Positions 47,579-55,387 of a stretch of DNA of 64,000 nt are shown in pieces. The translations under genes were made by a program, and so were the position numbers. The stretch covers positions 186,001-250,000 of the forward strand of contig JAMLHW010000005.1 of assembly GCA_023954475.1 (NCBI GenBank). The letters run 5' to 3'. How positions within the stretch are numbered: position 1 is the first letter of the stretch; each line of letters starts with the position of its first letter. Origin of the DNA: Anaerolineae bacterium (GTDB lineage: Bacteria; Chloroflexota; Anaerolineae; Promineifilales; Promineifilaceae). The notes below the pieces were generated by a model. That model ran no database searches. It was not told the DNA's origin and worked only from the letters and a program-made list of their open reading frames with translations.

Positions 47579-48811
47579 TCAATACAGCGGCTTGCTGGGG
47601 TCGATTTCCTCTGCCCAGCGGTTGATGCCGCCGTCAAGATTCCACAGGTTATCAAAGCCGAGCGGCTGTAGTTGGCGGATGACGGCCGCACTGCGACCGC
47701 CACTGCGGCACTGGACGACGATCTCGGCCGATCGGTCCAACTCCGCTACCCGATTCAACACATCCCCTTTCGGAATCAACAGCGCACCGTACTCGCTCAG
47801 GTTGGAGATGTCCCATTCATGCGGTTCGCGCACGTCGAGGATGACGAGATTATCGCCATTGTCAAGGCGGGCTTTCAGGTCGGCGGGCGACAGTTGGCGC
47901 ACTTCCGTGGCGAGGGCGAGCGTGCCGCCGGGGACCGGTTCCGGTTCGGCCGAATACGTACTGTGATCGTGCGCCGGCACGCCGCAGAACTGCTCGTAGT
48001 CGATCAACGCCGTCACCGTCGGATTCGGGCCACAGACGACGCAGTTGGGATTCTTGCGCAGCTTCAGTTCGGTGAACTCCATGTGCAGCGCGTCGAACAG
48101 CAGCAAGCGCCCCTTGAGCGGCGTGCCGATGCCGGTGATCAGCTTGATCGCTTCCAGCGCCTGCATCGTGCCGACAATACCGGGCAGCACGCCCAGGACG
48201 CCGCCTTCAGCGCAGCTCGGCACGAGGCCGGGTGGCGGCGGTTCGGGATAGAGGCAGCGGTAACACGGGCCGTCCTCGGTGTTGAACACCGTCACCTGCC
48301 CTTCAAAGCGGAAGATGCTGCCGTAGACGTTGGGCTTGCCGAGGAGGACGCAGGCATCGTTGACCAGATAGCGCGTCGGGAAGTTGTCGGTGCCGTCGAT
48401 AATCAGGTCATACGGCGCGAACAGGCGCAGCGCGTTGGCCGAGGTCAGCGGCTCGTTGTAGAGATCGACCTGCACGTTGGGATTGGCAGCCTGTATGCGC
48501 TGTCTGGCGATTTCGATCTTGCTCTTGCCCAGATCATCGGTAGTGTAGAGGATTTGGCGCTGTAAATTGGTGTGATCGACGGTGTCGTAATCGATGATCC
48601 CGATTCGGCCGATGCCCGCCGCCGCCAGATACAACGCCAACGGTGATCCCAAACCACCCGCGCCCACGATCAAAACGCTGGCCGCTTTGAGCTTTTTCTG
48701 TCCGGCCATGCCGACTTCCGGCATGATCAGATGCCGACTGTAGCGCTTGACTTCTTCCTGTGACAATGCGACGGCTTCTGCCCGTCCGTTGACGATGCTA
48801 TTGTGACTCAT
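47579..48811 (-). CDS. moeZ: MoeZ-like sulfur-carrier adenylyltransferase/sulfurtransferase (ThiF/MoeB + rhodanese)
   Basis: A 410-residue bifunctional E1-like enzyme. The ThiF/MoeB domain (about 15-260) has VLIVGAGGLGSPLALYLAAAG, DYDTVDHTNLQRQ, IIDGTDNFPTRYLVND and zinc-binding pairs CYRC and CVVC. The rhodanese domain (about 295-405) has LVILDVREPHEWDI and active-site VQCRSGGRSAA. It would adenylylate the Gly-Gly end of the CysO-like carrier encoded upstream and convert it to a thiocarboxylate, as MoeZ does in Mycobacterium. Its ATG lies 3 bp after the thioredoxin-like gene stop. A diverged fragment of its 3' end is at 45596. Confidence 0.93.
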   Translation of the reverse strand: MSHNSIVNGRAEAVALSQEEVKRYSRHLIMPEVGMAGQKKLKAASVLIVGAGGLGSPLALYLAAAGIGRIGIIDYDTVDHTNLQRQILYTTDDLGKSKIEIARQRIQAANPNVQVDLYNEPLTSANALRLFAPYDLIIDGTDNFPTRYLVNDACVLLGKPNVYGSIFRFEGQVTVFNTEDGPCYRCLYPEPPPPGLVPSCAEGGVLGVLPGIVGTMQALEAIKLITGIGTPLKGRLLLFDALHMEFTELKLRKNPNCVVCGPNPTVTALIDYEQFCGVPAHDHSTYSAEPEPVPGGTLALATEVRQLSPADLKARLDNGDNLVILDVREPHEWDISNLSEYGALLIPKGDVLNRVAELDRSAEIVVQCRSGGRSAAVIRQLQPLGFDNLWNLDGGINRWAEEIDPSKPLY

Positions 48812-48814
48812 AAT

Positions 48815-49201
48815 TTAATTCTCCAACTGACGCGCCAAGTGTGTGGCGCTGGTCAGCCCATAGTTGATTTGTTTAACATTGCCCTGTGCGCCGACAACGA
48901 TCGTCGTCGGCAGGGTCATCACGCCATAATCGGCCGCTCGCTGTGGGTCTGCGGCCACATCAATCGTCTCCACATGCACCGGCAAACCCGCTTGCAACTG
49001 CGTCAGGAATCGCGCCTGCACCGTACAGGGTGCACAGGTATCACTGCGAAAATACAGGATTGTAGGGGCGATCCATGGGTCGTCCCTACCGACGGTATTG
49101 ACCAATGGTGTCAAGCGTCGGCGCTGCCACTGCTGCCAGGCGACAAAACTGCCCGAACTGATGGCGACGATTAAGGTGGCGATTAGCAAGCGTCCAATCA
49201 T
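48815..49201 (-). CDS. Membrane-anchored thioredoxin-like protein
   Basis: A 128-residue protein with one N-terminal span (IGRLLIATLIVAISSGSFVAW) and a thioredoxin domain. The active site is YFRSDTCAPCTVQ, followed by VETIDVAADPQRAADYGV and cis-Pro MTLPTTIVV. It likely reduces or shuttles electrons for the sulfur-transfer enzymes around it. GGAG lies 8 nt before the ATG. The linker VGRDDPWIAPTI just before the active site is encoded by a hairpin repeat at 49062-49089, a probable insertion. It lies between the DUF4395 and moeZ-like genes. Confidence 0.88.
   Translation of the reverse strand: MIGRLLIATLIVAISSGSFVAWQQWQRRRLTPLVNTVGRDDPWIAPTILYFRSDTCAPCTVQARFLTQLQAGLPVHVETIDVAADPQRAADYGVMTLPTTIVVGAQGNVKQINYGLTSATHLARQLEN
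49062..49089. repeat. Palindromic hairpin element in the thioredoxin-like gene
   Basis: GTAGGGGCGA (49062-49071) and TCGTCCCTAC (49080-49089) form a 10-bp inverted repeat with one mismatch. The centre is TCCATGGG. It resembles dispersed REP-like hairpins and is read in frame as a short linker. Confidence 0.7.
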
Positions 49202-49270
49202 TTTTGTTCTCCGTAGAGGCGGCCCATGCCTATATGATGCATCGTTTCCGGGGTTTGGTGCACCAAACCC

Positions 49271-49726
49271 TTACGCAACCGGTTTCTGTGTGAAACCGCG
49301 CACACCAAGGCGGTTCAACTGGTAGTAGGCAAAGCAGCCCGCGCAAAAGCCGAGAAACAGATTCAAGGCGGCCAGACCGACGACCAGCCAGACCAGCAAC
49401 CAACCGACGAGCGGCAATCCGGCTGACAAGGCCAGTGTTGCGAATGCAACGACGACACCGCCAAACCCCTGCGCGAAGCGGTGCGGTTCCGGGTTGTCTT
49501 CGATTATGTCGGGCTTGACCCAGCCACGTGGTTTGAGCAGGTGCTGGTAAATCTGTTTGAAAAGGGCGAGATTCGGCCGAATCGTGCCCACAAGCATCAC
49601 CACGCCGACAAACGCCACCAGCCACCACAGATCGGCGACAAATGCCACGATCAACAAGCCGATGATGAACGCCTGATTGACCTTGAGTGCCGACTGATCG
49701 ACGCGCCGTGTTTTTGTCTCAGCCAT
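49271..49726 (-). CDS. DUF4395 family membrane protein
   Basis: A 151-residue protein with about four hydrophobic spans. VNQAFIIGLLIVAFVAD, FAQGFGGVVVAFATLALSAG and the C-terminal FLGFCAGCFAYYQLNRLG, with a CxxC pair in the membrane, fit DUF4395. These proteins recur next to thioredoxin and rhodanese genes; a redox or sulfur role is inferred. GGAGG lies 6 nt before the ATG and overlaps the end of the CysO-like gene, 2 bp away, so translation is coupled. Confidence 0.82.
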   Translation of the reverse strand: MAETKTRRVDQSALKVNQAFIIGLLIVAFVADLWWLVAFVGVVMLVGTIRPNLALFKQIYQHLLKPRGWVKPDIIEDNPEPHRFAQGFGGVVVAFATLALSAGLPLVGWLLVWLVVGLAALNLFLGFCAGCFAYYQLNRLGVRGFTQKPVA

Positions 49727-49728
49727 AT

Positions 49729-49998
49729 CTAGCCTCCGGCAATCGACGGCACGATCAACAGCGTTTCGTTGCCCTGCAACGCTGTATCCGCGCCGTCGAG
49801 ATAGCGAATGTCTTCCTGATTGAGGTAAATGTTGACGAAACTGCGCAGTTGATCGCCGTCGTACAGATGGTTGCGCAGGTCGGGATATTGCGTCGTCAGG
49901 TCGCCGAGCGCCTCGCCGACGGTGCCGCCGTTGACATCGATGCTGGCGTTGCCGCCTGCGTATTGGCGCAACGGGGTTGGAATGCGAATGATTGACAT
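49729..49998 (-). CDS. cysO: CysO/MoaD-like ubiquitin-fold sulfur carrier
   Basis: An 89-residue beta-grasp protein. It starts MSIIRIPTPLRQYAGGNASI and ends LLIVPSIAGG, with the terminal Gly-Gly needed for adenylation and thiocarboxylation. Internal VGEALGDLTTQYPDLRNHL and RSFVNIYLNQEDIRYLDG match the MoaD/CysO subgroup and closely recall mycobacterial CysO, whose end also reads AGG. AAGGAG lies 10 nt before the ATG. Flanking Mec+, CysM and MoeZ-like genes make a cysteine-synthesis role much more likely than a molybdopterin role. Confidence 0.88.
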   Translation of the reverse strand: MSIIRIPTPLRQYAGGNASIDVNGGTVGEALGDLTTQYPDLRNHLYDGDQLRSFVNIYLNQEDIRYLDGADTALQGNETLLIVPSIAGG

Positions 49999-50026
49999 GA
50001 ATATGATTCTCCTTGTTTAAGCGGAC

Positions 50027-50089
50027 AGCTATCAGCCTTCAGCCAACAGCCATCCGTATTTTACTGAAAGCTGATGGCTAACTGCTGAC
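50027..50089. repeat. Heptamer repeats at the mec/cysO junction
   Basis: AGCTATC AGCCTTC AGCCAAC AGCCATC (50027-50054) and AGCTGAT GGCTAAC TGCTGAC (50069-50089) are two facing heptamer series, partly inverted relative to each other. They span the spacer and overlap the last codons of the JAMM protease gene. Confidence 0.75.
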
Positions 50090-50524
50090 CACTATCGTGA
50101 CGATGGCGATTTCTTCCTCGACAAAACCGCTGCGGTCGTGACTAAGCTGCCAGGAGCGGTTGGCGAGTGCCTTGCCGCCGCGAATTTCGGTGATCAGATA
50201 TGAGTAGCCGGGCCACGATGCCCACGCCAGATCGCGTGGTGACGCCATGGCCGGGTGGTCCGGGTGGCTGTGAAAAATGCCGACGATGTCGAGTCCGTCG
50301 TGCATGGCTTCGAATTCGGCCGATAACCATTCCTTCTCATCGATGCGGAAGCGTTCCGGCTTTTCCGATTCGACAGGCCAGACATTCTGCATCGGCCGAA
50401 TGGCCACAACGACATTCCCCGTCTCGTTGTGCTGCCCCAAAAGCAAGCCGCACCCTTCATACGGATAGGCGTCGATGCCGTGTTGTTCAATCTGTTGTGT
50501 GAGGTCTGATGGTAAAGTCAACAT
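50078..50524 (-). CDS. mec: JAMM/MPN+ metalloprotease (Mec+-like)
   Basis: A 148-residue zinc peptidase. The MPN+ pattern is complete: the catalytic Glu in AYPYEGCGLLLG, then GIFHSHPDHPAMAS (His-X-His-Pro...Ser) and the Asp in PRDLAWASW. Mec+ of Mycobacterium removes cysteine from the CysO-cysteine adduct and regenerates the carrier. Here the gene precedes the CysO-like gene and follows the cystathionine-synthase-like gene in one orientation. The ribosome site is weak. Its 3' end runs into heptamer repeats. Confidence 0.9.
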   Translation of the reverse strand: MLTLPSDLTQQIEQHGIDAYPYEGCGLLLGQHNETGNVVVAIRPMQNVWPVESEKPERFRIDEKEWLSAEFEAMHDGLDIVGIFHSHPDHPAMASPRDLAWASWPGYSYLITEIRGGKALANRSWQLSHDRSGFVEEEIAIVTIVVSS

Positions 50525-50561
50525 GTTTGATAGTGTGATAGGTTGTTAGTTGGATAGTTGA

Positions 50562-51818
50562 TTACTGTTCACTGACCACCATCTTCTGGTGTAGAGCTTG
50601 TGCCAAATCTGCGATTAAGTCTTCAGCGTCTTCCAGGCCGAGCGCGAGGCGGACGAGATTGTCTTTGATGCCGATAGACAACCGTTCTTCGGTTGACAAT
50701 TCGTGATATGACATCAAAGCCGGCTGCTCGACCAGCGTTTCGGGGCCGCCCAGACTGGCCGCCAGAAGCGGAATCGTGAGCGCATCAATAAACCGCGAGG
50801 CGCTCTCCAACGGCGAGAAACCGGGTAAAGATGCGAGTTCAAAGCTGACAACACCGCCAAATCCGCTCATTTGTGTGGTGGCGACTGCGTGATCGGGATG
50901 TGCGGCCAATCCCGGATACCAGACCCGCTCAACCGCCGAATGCGCTTCGAGAAATTCAGCCACACGCTGCGCCGTCTCATTCTGGCGCGCGACGCGCAGT
51001 GCGAGTGTTTTGAGGCCGCGACCGAGCAGGAAAGCTGTGTGCGGATCCAAAACGCCGCCGAGAATGCCCTGGCTTTGGCGCAAACCGTGCAGCAAGCCCG
51101 CTGCGCCGACGACGACACCGGCCAGCAAATCGTTGTGACCGCTCAGATATTTCGACGCGCTGTGGACGACAAAATCGACGCCAAATTCGAGCGGGCGTAC
51201 GTTGATCGGCGTCGCAAACGTCGCGTCGATGATGGTTTTGATACGCGGATGGCCTTTGGCGATGGCGGCGAGGCGCGCGAGATCGACGACGCGCAGATAG
51301 GGATTAGTTGGACTTTCACTGAGGATGATGCGCGTGTTCGGCCGAATCGCCCCTGCCAACGCGTCATAATCACCCAACGGCACCACCGACGTCTCAATGC
51401 CCAGTCGTTTGAGAAACGTCTCGCAAAATGTGCGCGTACGACGATAACAATCGTCGGTCAGGATAATGTGTGCGCCGGTCGGCAAGACGGTCAGCAGCAA
51501 ATTGGTGATGGCCGCCATCCCGGTCGGATAGAGCAGCGCTGCCTCACCGTTTTCCAGCGCAGCGATGCGACGCTCCACTTCCTGCACGGTCGGATTGCCG
51601 AAGCGGGCGTATTCGCTGCGACCGTTGGTCGTCCCGCCCCACATTTTGGCATCCTGGAAGGCGCTGAGATCGGCCGAATCAGCAAACGTGTAGGTCGCTG
51701 TCTGGACAATGGGCGTTTGCAGCGCGTGGTAGGGATGCGTGCGGCGTTGGGCCACGTGGCCGTGAATGGCACGCGTGGCAAAACCGTGTTGCGCTTCGTT
51801 ATGCGGTTGTATTGTCAT
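50562..51818 (-). CDS. Cystathionine gamma-synthase-like PLP enzyme (SAM-riboswitch controlled)
   Basis: A 418-residue Cys/Met-metabolism PLP enzyme. Markers are RSEYARFGNPTVQEVERRIAAL, LYPTGMAAI, LSESPTNPYLRV, IIDATFATP and the PLP Lys in VHSASKYLSGHNDLLAG. The AGHND-like loop favours gamma-synthase activity, which joins O-acyl-homoserine to cysteine. Start 51818 is chosen for AGAGGA 6 nt upstream. A SAM-I riboswitch and terminator lie directly upstream, which fits a methionine-pathway enzyme. A second enzyme of this family is encoded at 55419. The exact reaction (synthase versus lyase) is inference. Confidence 0.88.
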   Translation of the reverse strand: MTIQPHNEAQHGFATRAIHGHVAQRRTHPYHALQTPIVQTATYTFADSADLSAFQDAKMWGGTTNGRSEYARFGNPTVQEVERRIAALENGEAALLYPTGMAAITNLLLTVLPTGAHIILTDDCYRRTRTFCETFLKRLGIETSVVPLGDYDALAGAIRPNTRIILSESPTNPYLRVVDLARLAAIAKGHPRIKTIIDATFATPINVRPLEFGVDFVVHSASKYLSGHNDLLAGVVVGAAGLLHGLRQSQGILGGVLDPHTAFLLGRGLKTLALRVARQNETAQRVAEFLEAHSAVERVWYPGLAAHPDHAVATTQMSGFGGVVSFELASLPGFSPLESASRFIDALTIPLLAASLGGPETLVEQPALMSYHELSTEERLSIGIKDNLVRLALGLEDAEDLIADLAQALHQKMVVSEQ

Positions 51819-51878
51819 AAACATTCCTCTTGAACAGGTTGCTACCCATCGGCCGAAGAGTTCGTCGGACGTTTGCAT

Positions 51879-51915
51879 AAAAAAACACCTCTACCACAAA
51901 GATTTGGTGAGGTGT
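51879..51915 (-). terminator. Riboswitch-controlled transcription terminator
   Basis: On the minus strand ACACCTC-ACCA (51915-51905) pairs with TGGT-A-GAGGTGT, ending at 51885, followed by seven T (51885-51879). It lies between the SAM-I aptamer and the ribosome site of the gene starting at 51818, so it is the expression platform. Confidence 0.9.
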
Positions 51916-51940
51916 CCGCGCATCATCGCAAATCACCTAC

Positions 51941-52073
51941 CTTATCTTTCAGTCCACGCGAATTATGTGCAATTTGCACGCAATTCGCCCTTCTGCCGGA
52001 TTTAGCACCATTTCCACTTTCGTGGCGGTTGCTGAGGCTTCACAGGGCCGTTCCCTCAACCTCTCTCGATAAG
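51941..52073 (-). ncRNA. SAM-I (S-box) riboswitch aptamer
   Basis: Read on the minus strand from 52073: CTTATCGAGAGAGG, then TTGAGGGAACGGCCCTGTGA, AGCCTCAGCAACC, ATGGTGCTAAATCC and the closing CTGAAAGATAAG. These are the conserved S-box blocks in order: P1 5' side, GAGGGA, GGCCC, GCAACC, GGTGCTAA-TCC and P1 3' side. SAM binding stabilises P1 and lets the downstream terminator (51879-51915) form, shutting off the cystathionine-synthase-like gene and probably the mec-cysO-DUF4395-trx-moeZ genes behind it. Confidence 0.95.
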
Positions 52074-52163
52074 ATGGGCAGTCATTATCTCGTTGTTAAT
52101 GGCTAATTTCTCGTTAGCCTGGAGCATAATAACAAACCAACTTGTCGATGTCAATAAGTAAAG

Positions 52164-52219
52164 AGCTTTTAGCTATCAGCCATCAGCTTTTAGCCTTCTG
52201 AATTCCGCCTTCATCCTTC
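52164..52219. repeat. Heptamer repeat array downstream of cysM
   Basis: Eight 7-mers in register, AGCTTTT AGCTATC AGCCATC AGCTTTT AGCCTTC TGAATTC CGCCTTC ATCCTTC, run from 52164 to 52219. They reach the cysM stop codon and belong to the same family as those at 16483, 50027 and 55407. Confidence 0.85.
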
Positions 52220-53177
52220 ATTGCTTCCAGAATCTGTCGCTGAGGTATTTGAAGCCGTTGTCGGGCAAAACGGTGACCACAACGCCGTCGTCGAGTCGTT
52301 GCGCAACTGCGAACGCGGCGACGACGTTGGCGGCAGACGACACACCGACAAACAAGCCGGCTTCCCGTGCCATTCTGAGCGCCATTTGATACGCATCTTC
52401 GGTACGGACTTCGATATTTTCATCGGCCGAAAATTCGTCGTAAATGCCCGGTTTGAGCGCCGTCGGCATGTGTTTCAGCCCTTCCAGGCCGTTAAACAGG
52501 CTGTCCGGCTGCATCGAAATTGCTTCAATACCGGGATTGAACGCGCGCAAACGACGGGTCGTGCCGGTAAATGTGCCTGACGTGCCCAGGCCGGCCACAA
52601 AATGGGTCACGCGCCCTTCGGTTTGCCGCCAGATTTCCGGTGCGGTCGTGTGGTAGTGAGCGAGCCAATTGGCCGGATTGTCGTATTGTCGCGCGTAGAA
52701 GTAGTCGGGATTCTCCCCGGCCAGTCGGCGCGCCTCAATGATCGCACCGTCCGAACCTTCAAGCGGATCGGTCAACACCAGTTCCGCACCGTATGAGCGC
52801 AGAATGGCGATGCGTTCGGCGCTGGCGTTGGCGGGCAGCGCCAGCGCGACCTTGTAGCCGCGTGCTGCGCCGAGCATGGCGTAGGCGATGCCCATGTTGC
52901 CCGATGTCGAATCGAGCAGGGTCATGCCCGGACGCAACAAGCCGAGCGTTTCGGCCGATCTGATGATATTGAGCGCCGGACGATCCTTGACCGAACCGCT
53001 CGGGTTGAACCATTCCGCTTTGGCATAGACGTCGACCGTCGGCGCAATACCGGCTGCATCAGCCAATTTGCGCAGATTGAGCAGCGGTGTATTGCCGACT
53101 TGCGCTTCGACGCTATCGGGTTGGAATTCGGGTAAATTGTCGAAAGAAACAGGTTGTATTTGTACTGCTTGCAACAT
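52218..53177 (-). CDS. cysM: CysM-like cysteine synthase
   Basis: A 319-residue PLP beta-substituting synthase. Motifs are QVGNTPLLNL, the PLP Lys in NPSGSVKDRPA, LLDSTSGNMGIAYAML, FVAGLGTSGTFTGTTRRL and EAGLFVGVSSAANVVAA. The insert QPDSLFNGLEGLKHMPTALK resembles the CysO-dependent CysM of Mycobacterium rather than CysK, so the acceptor may be O-phosphoserine and the sulfur donor the CysO-like thiocarboxylate. ATG at 53177 has AGGA 8 nt upstream. It lies immediately upstream of the SAM-riboswitch operon in the same direction. Confidence 0.88.
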   Translation of the reverse strand: MLQAVQIQPVSFDNLPEFQPDSVEAQVGNTPLLNLRKLADAAGIAPTVDVYAKAEWFNPSGSVKDRPALNIIRSAETLGLLRPGMTLLDSTSGNMGIAYAMLGAARGYKVALALPANASAERIAILRSYGAELVLTDPLEGSDGAIIEARRLAGENPDYFYARQYDNPANWLAHYHTTAPEIWRQTEGRVTHFVAGLGTSGTFTGTTRRLRAFNPGIEAISMQPDSLFNGLEGLKHMPTALKPGIYDEFSADENIEVRTEDAYQMALRMAREAGLFVGVSSAANVVAAFAVAQRLDDGVVVTVLPDNGFKYLSDRFWKQ

Positions 53178-53400
53178 ATGTGCATCCTGAGTTGTGAGCA
53201 AGTTATAGATGTCTGCTGTGTTGGCCAGACAACAAAAAACGGTAGCTGCTTGCTACGCCGGGCTGTCGCTTGGGCGAGGAGGCTGCTACCGTGTCTTACT
53301 TACTCTTGCTCAAAATGCATAAAGAAGACGGCGGATCAGCGTCCCCGCCTCATACACAAGCAATCGTACTGGTGATGGGTTATCAAACTCAAAGCGTTCA
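53178..53400 (-). promoter_or_regulatory. cysM leader with intrinsic terminator, unassigned attenuator
   Basis: The minus-strand leader contains GGCGG/CCGCC (hairpin at about 53330-53349) and then a terminator. In the terminator ACGGTAGC (53292-53285) pairs with GCTACCGT (53246-53239) around an inner CGCC/GGCG stem, followed by TTTTTTG. The terminator sits about 55 nt before the cysM start. A six-codon frame (MHFEQE, stop) precedes it at about 53298-53318. It lacks S-box and T-box signatures. It may be a new attenuator or simply the terminator of the exonuclease gene upstream. Confidence 0.55.
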
Positions 53401-53551
53401 TTGTGAATCAGTATAGCAACTCGAAAGTCAATGTCAATTAACAAAAGGTTACAATTTCGGCCGAAAATAATCGGCGGTTTGTCCTGTAGACGGTGTTGGG
53501 CAGCGCTTTCTTACCTTTTCGGCCGAAACAGCTCAGGCGAGATTCATTTGA
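53401..53551. other. Spacer with two iterated palindromes
   Basis: Between the DnaQ-WYL stop and the cysM leader are two palindromes, at about 53457 and 53518. No coding sequence is seen. A promoter for cysM probably lies here but is not clear. Confidence 0.4.
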
Positions 53552-54397
53552 CTACGCTACCAGCTTCGCACTGAGGATGCGGTCGAGACGGAATGAGCGT
53601 TGATCGTCCCGCAAATGACAGTGGGCGATCAAGTAATCGTGTCCGCGGTGATGAGCGGCGTATCGGGGTGAGATGACGCGTTCAGTGACGCCGTCGCGGC
53701 TCATGTACAGGATGATTGCTTGCCTGTTTTCAGCGATTGCTTCGTCCAGCGGGGCAGGCAATGGGATGGGGACGACAGGCGGCGTGTAAATCGCTTCGCC
53801 CTGCGCGTGGAGAATGTCGCCGACTGTTTTCATCCTTTTTTTACCCAGTTGGCGCGTCATGCGCTTGAGCACTTCGGCAGTCATGTAGACATCGTTGAGC
53901 GCCCGGTGCGCCGTACCACGGCGGACGCCAAGCTGAGCGGCGATGTGGCCGAGACTGTTTCGGCCGAAATAAAAATGGTTGCGCGCCAGCAACAACGTAC
54001 AAATCCAGGGGTTGGGCAGCACCGGTTCGCGTTCGGCCGGCGCATAACCCGCCAGCCAATATTCTAACCCCAGAAAACCGGCATCGAAAACAGCGTTGTG
54101 GGCGACGATGACGGCACCGTCGAGCAAAGCCAGCAGTTCGTCCGCAATATCGACAAAGCGCGGTTGCCCCTCGAGATCGCTGTCGTAAATGTGGTTGACG
54201 GCCGACGCGCCCGCGTCCATCGCGCGGTCGGGATAAATCAGGCGGTCAAATGTACCGACTTCTTGCCACGCTTCCAGCCGCAGCGCACCGACTTCGACAA
54301 TGCGATTACCCAGACCGGGGTAGAGACCGGTCGTTTCGGTGTCGAGGACGACAAGTGGAACCTGTTCAATGGGTTGATCGAGCCAGGATTGCTGCAT
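53552..54397 (-). CDS. DEDDh (DnaQ-like) exonuclease fused to a WYL domain
   Basis: A 281-residue protein. Residues about 15-180 form a 3'-5' exonuclease: VVLDTETTGLYPG (Exo I, Asp-Glu), VIVAHNAVFDAGFL (Exo II) and TAHRALNDVYMTAEV (Exo III, His-Asp). Residues about 210-281 match a WYL domain: AIAENRQAIILYMSRDGVTE, VISPRYAAHHRGHDYLIAHC, RSFRLDRILSAKL. WYL domains bind nucleic acid or nucleotides and often regulate DNA-damage or defence genes. The fusion suggests a ligand-gated nuclease. Start 54397 has GGAGGT 7 nt upstream. The YihY gene ends 25 bp before it. Confidence 0.85.
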   Translation of the reverse strand: MQQSWLDQPIEQVPLVVLDTETTGLYPGLGNRIVEVGALRLEAWQEVGTFDRLIYPDRAMDAGASAVNHIYDSDLEGQPRFVDIADELLALLDGAVIVAHNAVFDAGFLGLEYWLAGYAPAEREPVLPNPWICTLLLARNHFYFGRNSLGHIAAQLGVRRGTAHRALNDVYMTAEVLKRMTRQLGKKRMKTVGDILHAQGEAIYTPPVVPIPLPAPLDEAIAENRQAIILYMSRDGVTERVISPRYAAHHRGHDYLIAHCHLRDDQRSFRLDRILSAKLVA

Positions 54398-54421
54398 GAG
54401 ATACACCTCCGTTTGCGCGGA

Positions 54422-55387
54422 TCATGATTCGGCCGACTGTTCGGCCGAATCCGGTCGCTCAATCCCTGCTTCCGGAAAATAACTGTCCAATTGCGTTATG
54501 ATTTCCTCCAATCCCGGTACAACTACCGTACCCTGACCCTTGCGCGAGCCGCGCTCCAGTGCGTACACATAGGAAAAACACGCGCCAAAGAGGACGATTT
54601 GCGCCGAATAGTAGACCCAGATCAAAACCGCAACGAGCGATCCCGCCACGCCGTACAATGAACGGCTGCCAAATGTTCCCAGATAAAAACTGATCAGCGC
54701 CTGACCGATGAAAAATAGGACCGAAGTGATGATTGCGGCGATCCAGACATCGCGCCAGGCAATACTGGTGCGCGGAACCATTTTGAATGTCATGATAAAG
54801 ATGATGAAGGCAATGAGGAGGATCAATACCCAATCGGCCGAAACAAGTAAATCAGCCAGTGCGGGCAGGTACCCGGATATCCAGATAGTCGCAGCCTCCT
54901 CAATCGTGGAAATGAGCAACATCGCGACAAACAACAGCACCACGATTACCACCATCACCAACGATGCACCCCATTTGACAATCTGACTGATCAAACCAAA
55001 TTGCTTTTCCTCAGGCACACGCCACAAAGTGTTTAGCGAATCCTGCAACTGACGAAACAAACTGGTAGCGCCAAACAGCAACGTGAGCAAGCCGATGATG
55101 GTGGTAATCGTCGTCGACGTCGAATCGATCGTCTGTTCAAACATGGGTTCAAGCAACGCCACACCATCTGCTCCCACAAACTGCTCAGCCAGTGTCAGCA
55201 GTTCATTCTGTGCCGTTTCCTTGCTAAAAAACAGACCGGCAATCGACACGGCAAAAATCAGCAGAGGAGCCAGTGACAACGATGCATAGAACGACATCGC
55301 CGCCGCCATACGCGGGGCACGATCACGGACCCATTTGTGTCCGGCCCGCACCAGGATGGTCAATGACTGGATGATCCAGTTAATCAT
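54422..55387 (-). CDS. YihY/UPF0761 family membrane protein
   Basis: A 321-residue polytopic protein with about six spans. The YihY (formerly BrkB/RNase BN) pattern is clear: RAPRMAAAMSFYASLSLAPLLIF, TTIIGLLTLLFGATSLFRQLQDSLNTLW, FYLGTFGSRSLYGVAGSLVAVLIWVYYSAQIVLFGACF. Function is unsettled. The acidic tail contains two adjacent palindromes read as RPDSAEQSAES. GGAGGT lies 7 nt before the ATG. Confidence 0.92.
   Translation of the reverse strand: MINWIIQSLTILVRAGHKWVRDRAPRMAAAMSFYASLSLAPLLIFAVSIAGLFFSKETAQNELLTLAEQFVGADGVALLEPMFEQTIDSTSTTITTIIGLLTLLFGATSLFRQLQDSLNTLWRVPEEKQFGLISQIVKWGASLVMVVIVVLLFVAMLLISTIEEAATIWISGYLPALADLLVSADWVLILLIAFIIFIMTFKMVPRTSIAWRDVWIAAIITSVLFFIGQALISFYLGTFGSRSLYGVAGSLVAVLIWVYYSAQIVLFGACFSYVYALERGSRKGQGTVVVPGLEEIITQLDSYFPEAGIERPDSAEQSAES

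Follow-up and report, generated by a model that had tools for sequence, protein, structure and literature searches.

Most of what is known about WYL domains concerns regulators of damage response and defence, in which they sense ssDNA. In the 5.12 Mb Anaerolineae assembly considered here, the WYL profile has a single match at E ≤ 0.001, in a protein whose N-terminal part is a DnaQ-like exonuclease. If exonuclease and WYL form a recurring family, it would allow a direct test of whether the WYL domain captures the substrate or switches the enzyme. The gene is encoded in a stretch of 64,000 nucleotides, hereafter the window.

The reading frame lies on the minus strand, with an ATG start codon at 54397 and a TAG stop at 53552-53554, and the same frame was recovered in a whole-genome search. 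A preliminary description of this DNA had claimed that a DnaQ-like exonuclease with all DEDDh residues is followed by a WYL domain in the same chain. The open reading frame and the Pfam matches, above cut-off for both RNase_T and WYL, bear out the fusion, and each of the expected catalytic residues (D19, E21, D105, H164 and D169) was found. Only four Pfam families match the protein at E up to 10. The features are as follows, all on the minus strand:

53552..54397, minus strand: DnaQ-WYL gene, 281 aa plus stop (ORF list, sequence)
54406..54410, minus strand: Shine-Dalgarno-like GGAGG, 8 nt upstream of the ATG at 54397 (read from the sequence)
53867..54352, minus strand: predicted DEDDh 3'-5' exonuclease domain (RNase_T), residues 16-177 (Pfam E 1.8e-27; same borders in the whole-genome family search)
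54335..54343, minus strand: Exo I motif, D19 and E21 (invariant in 36/36 and 72/72 aligned rows)
54083..54085, minus strand: Exo II motif, D105 (invariant in 36/36 and 72/72 rows)
53891..53908, minus strand: Exo III motif HRALND, H164 and D169 (invariant in 36/36 rows; one of the two lost in 10/14 relatives of genome family f29)
53753..53845, minus strand: helix (192-198) and proline-rich linker, residues 185-215 (alignment, model)
53564..53752, minus strand: WYL domain, residues 216-278, C-terminal, without WCX (Pfam E 1.7e-14; fold match to WYL structures)
53579..53680, minus strand: predicted nucleic-acid-binding residues R240, Y255, R263, R267, R270 and R273 (alignment with PafB)

By profile, fold and residues, the protein belongs to the DnaQ/DEDDh 3'-5' exonuclease superfamily, and its activity is predicted from this membership. 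RNase_T scored 97.3 bits against a cut-off of 24. While the five catalytic residues are invariant in the 36-row family alignment (A1), a wider set of 72 rows retained D19, E21 and D105 throughout, H164 in 63 and D169 in 71, with all five present together in 62. In the linker region, Q199 and G200 are invariant and T191 is found in 32 of the 36 rows. PDB sequence searches with the N-terminal part ranked the PolC and Pol III epsilon exonuclease domains first. An AlphaFold2 model of the full-length protein, built from alignment A1, reached a mean pLDDT of 95 and a pTM of 0.91, values that suggest that the two domains pack in a fixed arrangement. This model aligned with epsilon (2ido_C) at a VIA Z of 22.5 and an rmsd of 1.6 over 165 residues. 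Its further fold matches, which run mainly through the exonuclease part, were the exonuclease domains of PolC and DinG, other Pol III epsilon structures, ExoX, a Streptococcus thermophilus DnaQ domain, TREX1, ExoI and RNase T, together with ERI/3'hExo structures. The assembly contains two RNase_T matches, of which DnaQ-WYL is one. The other belongs to an open frame of 949 aa, apparently a DnaQ-DinG helicase, the DinG part being assigned by inspection rather than by profile.

The WYL profile matched residues 216-278 with 54 bits against a cut-off of 21.8. The eponymous tryptophan is replaced by aspartate (DYL at 254-256), and the chain stops after the domain, so that there is no WCX extension. 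The structural alignments of the whole model span mainly residues 3-210, and the lack of WYL rows there is uninformative; for this reason, a separate model and fold search were made for the WYL part. The C-terminal 80 residues folded alone with a pLDDT of 90.8 and a pTM of 0.74, and the best 29 PDB rows retrieved with Foldseek were all WYL chains, from PafBC, CapW, BrxR and DriD, several of them titled as ssDNA-bound. A different fold for the C-terminal region, the finding that would have spoken against the preliminary description, was not seen. PafBC also leads the PDB sequence search with the C-terminal part (E 0.0006). The same WYL profile matches 8bnv, an AAA ATPase of 510 aa, at 439-506 (E 1.1e-11). 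No HTH domain scored above the Pfam cut-off in the DnaQ-WYL protein; HTH_IclR matches weakly inside the exonuclease domain (12.6 bits, with the cut-off at 22). Absence of both an N-terminal HTH and a WCX, the latter usual in WYL transcription regulators, sets the protein apart from these.

Profile alignment with Mycobacterium smegmatis PafB (7p5x_AY) placed R240, Y255, R263, R267, R270 and R273 opposite PafB R181, Y196, R204, R208, R211 and R214. The PafB-type residue is found at these positions in 36, 30, 31, 35, 35 and 31 of the 36 rows of alignment A1, respectively, and the groove cysteine, C260, is present here and in 35 rows in all. In the relevant passages of PMC11804915, the PafB variants R181A, Y196A, R181A/R204A/R208A and R211A/R214A lost ssDNA binding, while binding was unaffected by the corresponding R201A/R204A change in PafC. 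By alignment, all six residues that PafB needs for ssDNA binding are thus present in the DnaQ-WYL protein. This conservation supports, by homology, a nucleic-acid role for the WYL part. Nevertheless, the six residues point to an intact groove rather than to ssDNA specificity, because they are largely general features of the WYL family, whose pattern is described in a passage of PMC4012209 as four basic residues and a cysteine.

DnaQ-WYL is a recurring gene family of Chloroflexota. At E ≤ 1e-30, 61 of 298 genomes of the class match, the source genome included, and 58 of these carry the full-length protein (from residue ≤16 to ≥275); the remaining three matches are partial (G251, with stops, G153 and G034). 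A phylum-wide set of 400 genomes yielded 110 matches at E ≤ 1e-40. In 47 of these, again with the source genome included, the match is full-length (from model position ≤10 to ≥268), while one begins at position 34 and the other 62 end at or before position 234. Because the stop-free open frame recurs in 58/298 class and 47/400 phylum genomes, the fusion is not a sequencing artefact. We collected 72 distinct DnaQ-WYL proteins. In a quick tree with long outgroup branches, their exonuclease domains all fell on one side of a branch (SH-aLRT 96) from 40 other DnaQ domains, 39 of them viral and one from the DnaQ-DinG protein of the same genome. This topology is consistent with a single origin of the fusion, relative to an outgroup that is nearly all viral. 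The scan of genome contigs used patterns of close relatives, and the nine loci kept were titled Chloroflexota, Chloroflexi, Anaerolineae or Anaerolinea. A phage or plasmid origin was considered and rejected: 80% of the protein was covered in none of the 673 plasmid records and none of the 76 phage records with a match, and no full-length match was present among the 80 viral loci kept from at least 191 relatives found.

Catalytic residues and WYL groove do not always travel together. In genome family f29, an Exo III residue is lost in 10 of 14 members (seven H164S, two H164R and one D169G), and all 14 retain the R-Y-R-R-R-R set of the WYL domain. The ten proteins with a broken Exo III motif (L058-L060, L062-L066, L069 and L070) are, judging from these substitutions, probable dead exonucleases. 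Outside f29, all five catalytic residues are retained in 58 of 58 rows. Families f71 and f81 lack the arginine at position 270 in 12 of 12 rows and keep their catalytic residues, and the same holds for one row each of f37, f110 and f1. In the f1 protein L018, only two of the six WYL residues are left. As read from the alignment, some lineages therefore retain the WYL groove without an intact active site, and others have partly lost the groove. A speculative extension, to which we give only slight credence, is that DnaQ-WYL serves Chloroflexota as a stand-alone exonuclease for handling ssDNA, with WYL replacing the ssDNA-gripping part of ExoI, and that f29 has turned into a catalytically dead nucleic-acid binder that keeps the six WYL residues. 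If this is true, the f29 branch represents an enzyme evolving into a sensor. Its broken active site also makes the branch a natural control for what the WYL domain does when catalysis is absent.

The reading we favour, with a probability of roughly 0.55, is that of a chromosomal DEDDh 3'-5' exonuclease with an accessory DNA-maintenance role, in which the WYL part captures the single-stranded substrate. The C-terminal WYL (Sm-like) barrel would use its arginine groove to bind single-stranded nucleic acid, with ssDNA as the likeliest ligand, and would help to feed or hold the bound strand at the exonuclease active site; the enzyme would then be an accessory factor and not a replicative proofreader. 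In PafBC, the ssDNA path runs between WYL and WCX, according to a passage of PMC11804915, and by analogy the exonuclease domain may occupy the WCX side of the WYL domain. We infer the exonuclease activity, ssDNA as the ligand, and a WYL domain that captures the substrate rather than switching the enzyme on. Against substrate capture by an active exonuclease stand the f29 losses of H164 or D169, which indicate that catalysis is not retained everywhere, the rows without an arginine at position 270 and the depleted groove of L018, the intact ssDNA binding of the PafC variant, and the published mention of the combination, where the nuclease is termed an exoRNase (a single passage of PMC4012209).

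The next best explanation is a ligand-gated nuclease, a possibility raised in the preliminary description, in which damage-derived ssDNA, an oligonucleotide or a modified nucleotide at the WYL domain would switch the exonuclease on, by analogy with WYL transcription factors and CARF effectors. PafBC is activated by ssDNA bound at its WYL domain (a passage of PMC11804915), and Makarova et al. proposed ligand sensing for WYL-enzyme fusions (in the passages concerned of PMC4012209). Nonetheless, the closest enzyme precedent, Pif1-WYL, is better fitted by substrate capture than by gating, and we regard gating as unlikely. On the side of gating, the DnaQ-WYL protein itself matches the PADLOC models DEDDh, WYL, PDC-S48 and RTasWYL-YodC, and a few immediate neighbours, each singly, match defence models (PADLOC methyltransferase, PycTM, MzaA and others). 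However, each of the four models matches the protein through one domain only. Moreover, among the matches listed, for 25 of 41 families, no PADLOC model was matched by more than three of the 78 immediate neighbours (proteins of at least 90 aa from 42 relatives' loci, based on rough gene calls). The most frequent Pfam families in these neighbours were SH3_3 (five), NusA (three) and NUDIX (three). The defence role suggested in the preliminary description consequently finds little support: single neighbours match defence models, with at most three for any one model, and no full-length phage or plasmid copy was seen.

The wider neighbourhood does not favour gating either, as no neighbour is conserved across families. 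In the window, a BrkB-family membrane protein (54422-55387) is encoded 24 nt ahead of the DnaQ-WYL gene on the same strand; a homologue was found at one other locus, where it is non-adjacent. Neighbours of relatives were surveyed over about 6 kb per side, where the contig allowed, in 49 sources with a crude gene-calling script. Six sources for which the gene picker missed the target gene (L001, L168, L169, L171, L173 and L178) were dropped, leaving 43 loci. The largest neighbour cluster occurred at nine of these, in scattered positions, and its one tested member was an ABC transporter ATPase. Synteny was found within single families only. In f71 (L185-L189), the same gene lies directly upstream on the same strand at all five loci, with SH3_3 domains in the four tested, and possibly forms a lineage-specific operon with DnaQ-WYL. 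In f25, a gene for a LysM protein (one tested) is on the opposite strand at all three loci, and an MFS-like gene (one tested) lies downstream at four loci of f1 and relatives. The neighbourhood survey that the preliminary description had proposed thus revealed local synteny but nothing common to the family groups: at the depth surveyed, there is no family-wide operon and no recurrent defence partner.

In the window, the DnaQ-WYL gene is surrounded by genes of sulfur metabolism. On the minus strand at 47579-53201, ThiF-rhodanese, thioredoxin-like, DUF4395, ThiS, JAB peptidase, Cys/Met PLP enzyme and PALP (CysK-like) genes are encoded in a row; together they resemble a route to cysteine via a sulfur-carrier protein. 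The mycobacterial CysO-CysM-Mec system is such a route.

Sm/Hfq-like folds bind RNA, and the protein might accordingly be read as an RNA-directed exoribonuclease whose WYL domain binds RNA in a similar way. The published term exoRNase and the presence of RNase T and ERI/3'hExo among the fold matches argue for this possibility. Yet the best sequence and fold matches (epsilon, PolC, DinG and ExoX) are DNA enzymes, and those WYL structures among the fold matches that contain a ligand name ssDNA in their titles, so we consider an RNA enzyme improbable, and substrate capture is favoured over it as it is over gating. Although epsilon is a top profile and fold match, it is very hard to see the protein as the replicative proofreading subunit of the lineage, since it reached only 109.5 bits against the cut-off of 222.7 for TIGR01406 and its presence at E ≤ 1e-30 in 61 of 298 class genomes seems too patchy for a core replication part.

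A separate feature of the window, probably more surprising than the DnaQ-WYL finding, is a highly iterated palindrome. The window contains 51 copies of TTCGGCCGAA (for example at 53456, 53518, 53959 and 54440), where shuffled sequence predicts 0.15, and 100 copies of its core, TCGGCCGA. The whole genome (G000) contains 3215 copies, against 17 of a reversed control. Among 119 other genomes sampled from the class, the maximum was 30. Counts in 51 other genomes of the same family were 2577 in one genome of genus g4, 134 in its g4 sister, 54-225 in five genomes of g8 and at most 33 in the other 44. In density, TTCGGCCGAA resembles HIP1, but the cyanobacterial HIP1 palindrome is a different sequence. 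A literature search on highly iterated palindromes in Chloroflexi found no paper, and a word search of PMC4390886, on HIP, found neither TTCGGCCGAA nor 'chloroflex'. A C5 DNA methyltransferase (PF00145; G000 C20:410607-411806, L198), the only match at E ≤ 0.001 in the genome, is a candidate partner of the palindrome. Five relatives searched encode one to four C5 methyltransferases each, with or without many palindromes; palindrome abundance thus does not follow this gene family by itself.

Among known systems, Pol III epsilon, the PolC exonuclease, ExoX and DnaQ-DinG share the DEDDh fold and motifs with DnaQ-WYL, and none of these families is known to have a WYL domain. Exonuclease I (SbcB) combines a DnaQ domain with an SH3-like domain that grips ssDNA. 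In contrast, the ExoI C-terminal domain family was absent from the Pfam matches of the DnaQ-WYL protein (E up to 10), and among the matches listed ExoI aligns over at most 184 residues, mainly of the exonuclease. The transcription factors PafBC, DriD, CapW and BrxR have the WYL fold and binding residues in common with DnaQ-WYL, which lacks their HTH and WCX and carries an exonuclease in their place. The Pif1-WYL helicases of Thermotoga elfii and others, as portrayed in passages of PMC9964779, are likewise DNA enzymes with a C-terminal WYL domain and an arginine groove, having a helicase where DnaQ-WYL has an exonuclease; there, the WYL domain is reported to bind ssDNA and to be crucial for helicase activity. 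In five relatives from the phylum with genomes of 1.0-1.8 Mb (G324, G377, G391, G412 and G433), WYL also matches within open frames 526-547 aa long, a size that would fit Pif1-WYL helicases.

Among the matches listed from the open-access literature, there was no study of a DnaQ-WYL protein, and PMC4012209 was the one paper naming the combination; DnaQ and the WYL domain are mentioned apart in the passages concerned of PMC8616872. Makarova et al. 2014 (PMC4012209) name fusions of WYL with a 3'->5' exoRNase in one sentence. These contain the same pair of domain kinds and may include members of this family; the passages on them give no function, distribution or residue analysis. The domain pair has been known since 2014, and its distribution, the mapping of its residues and the f29 branch are the additions made here.
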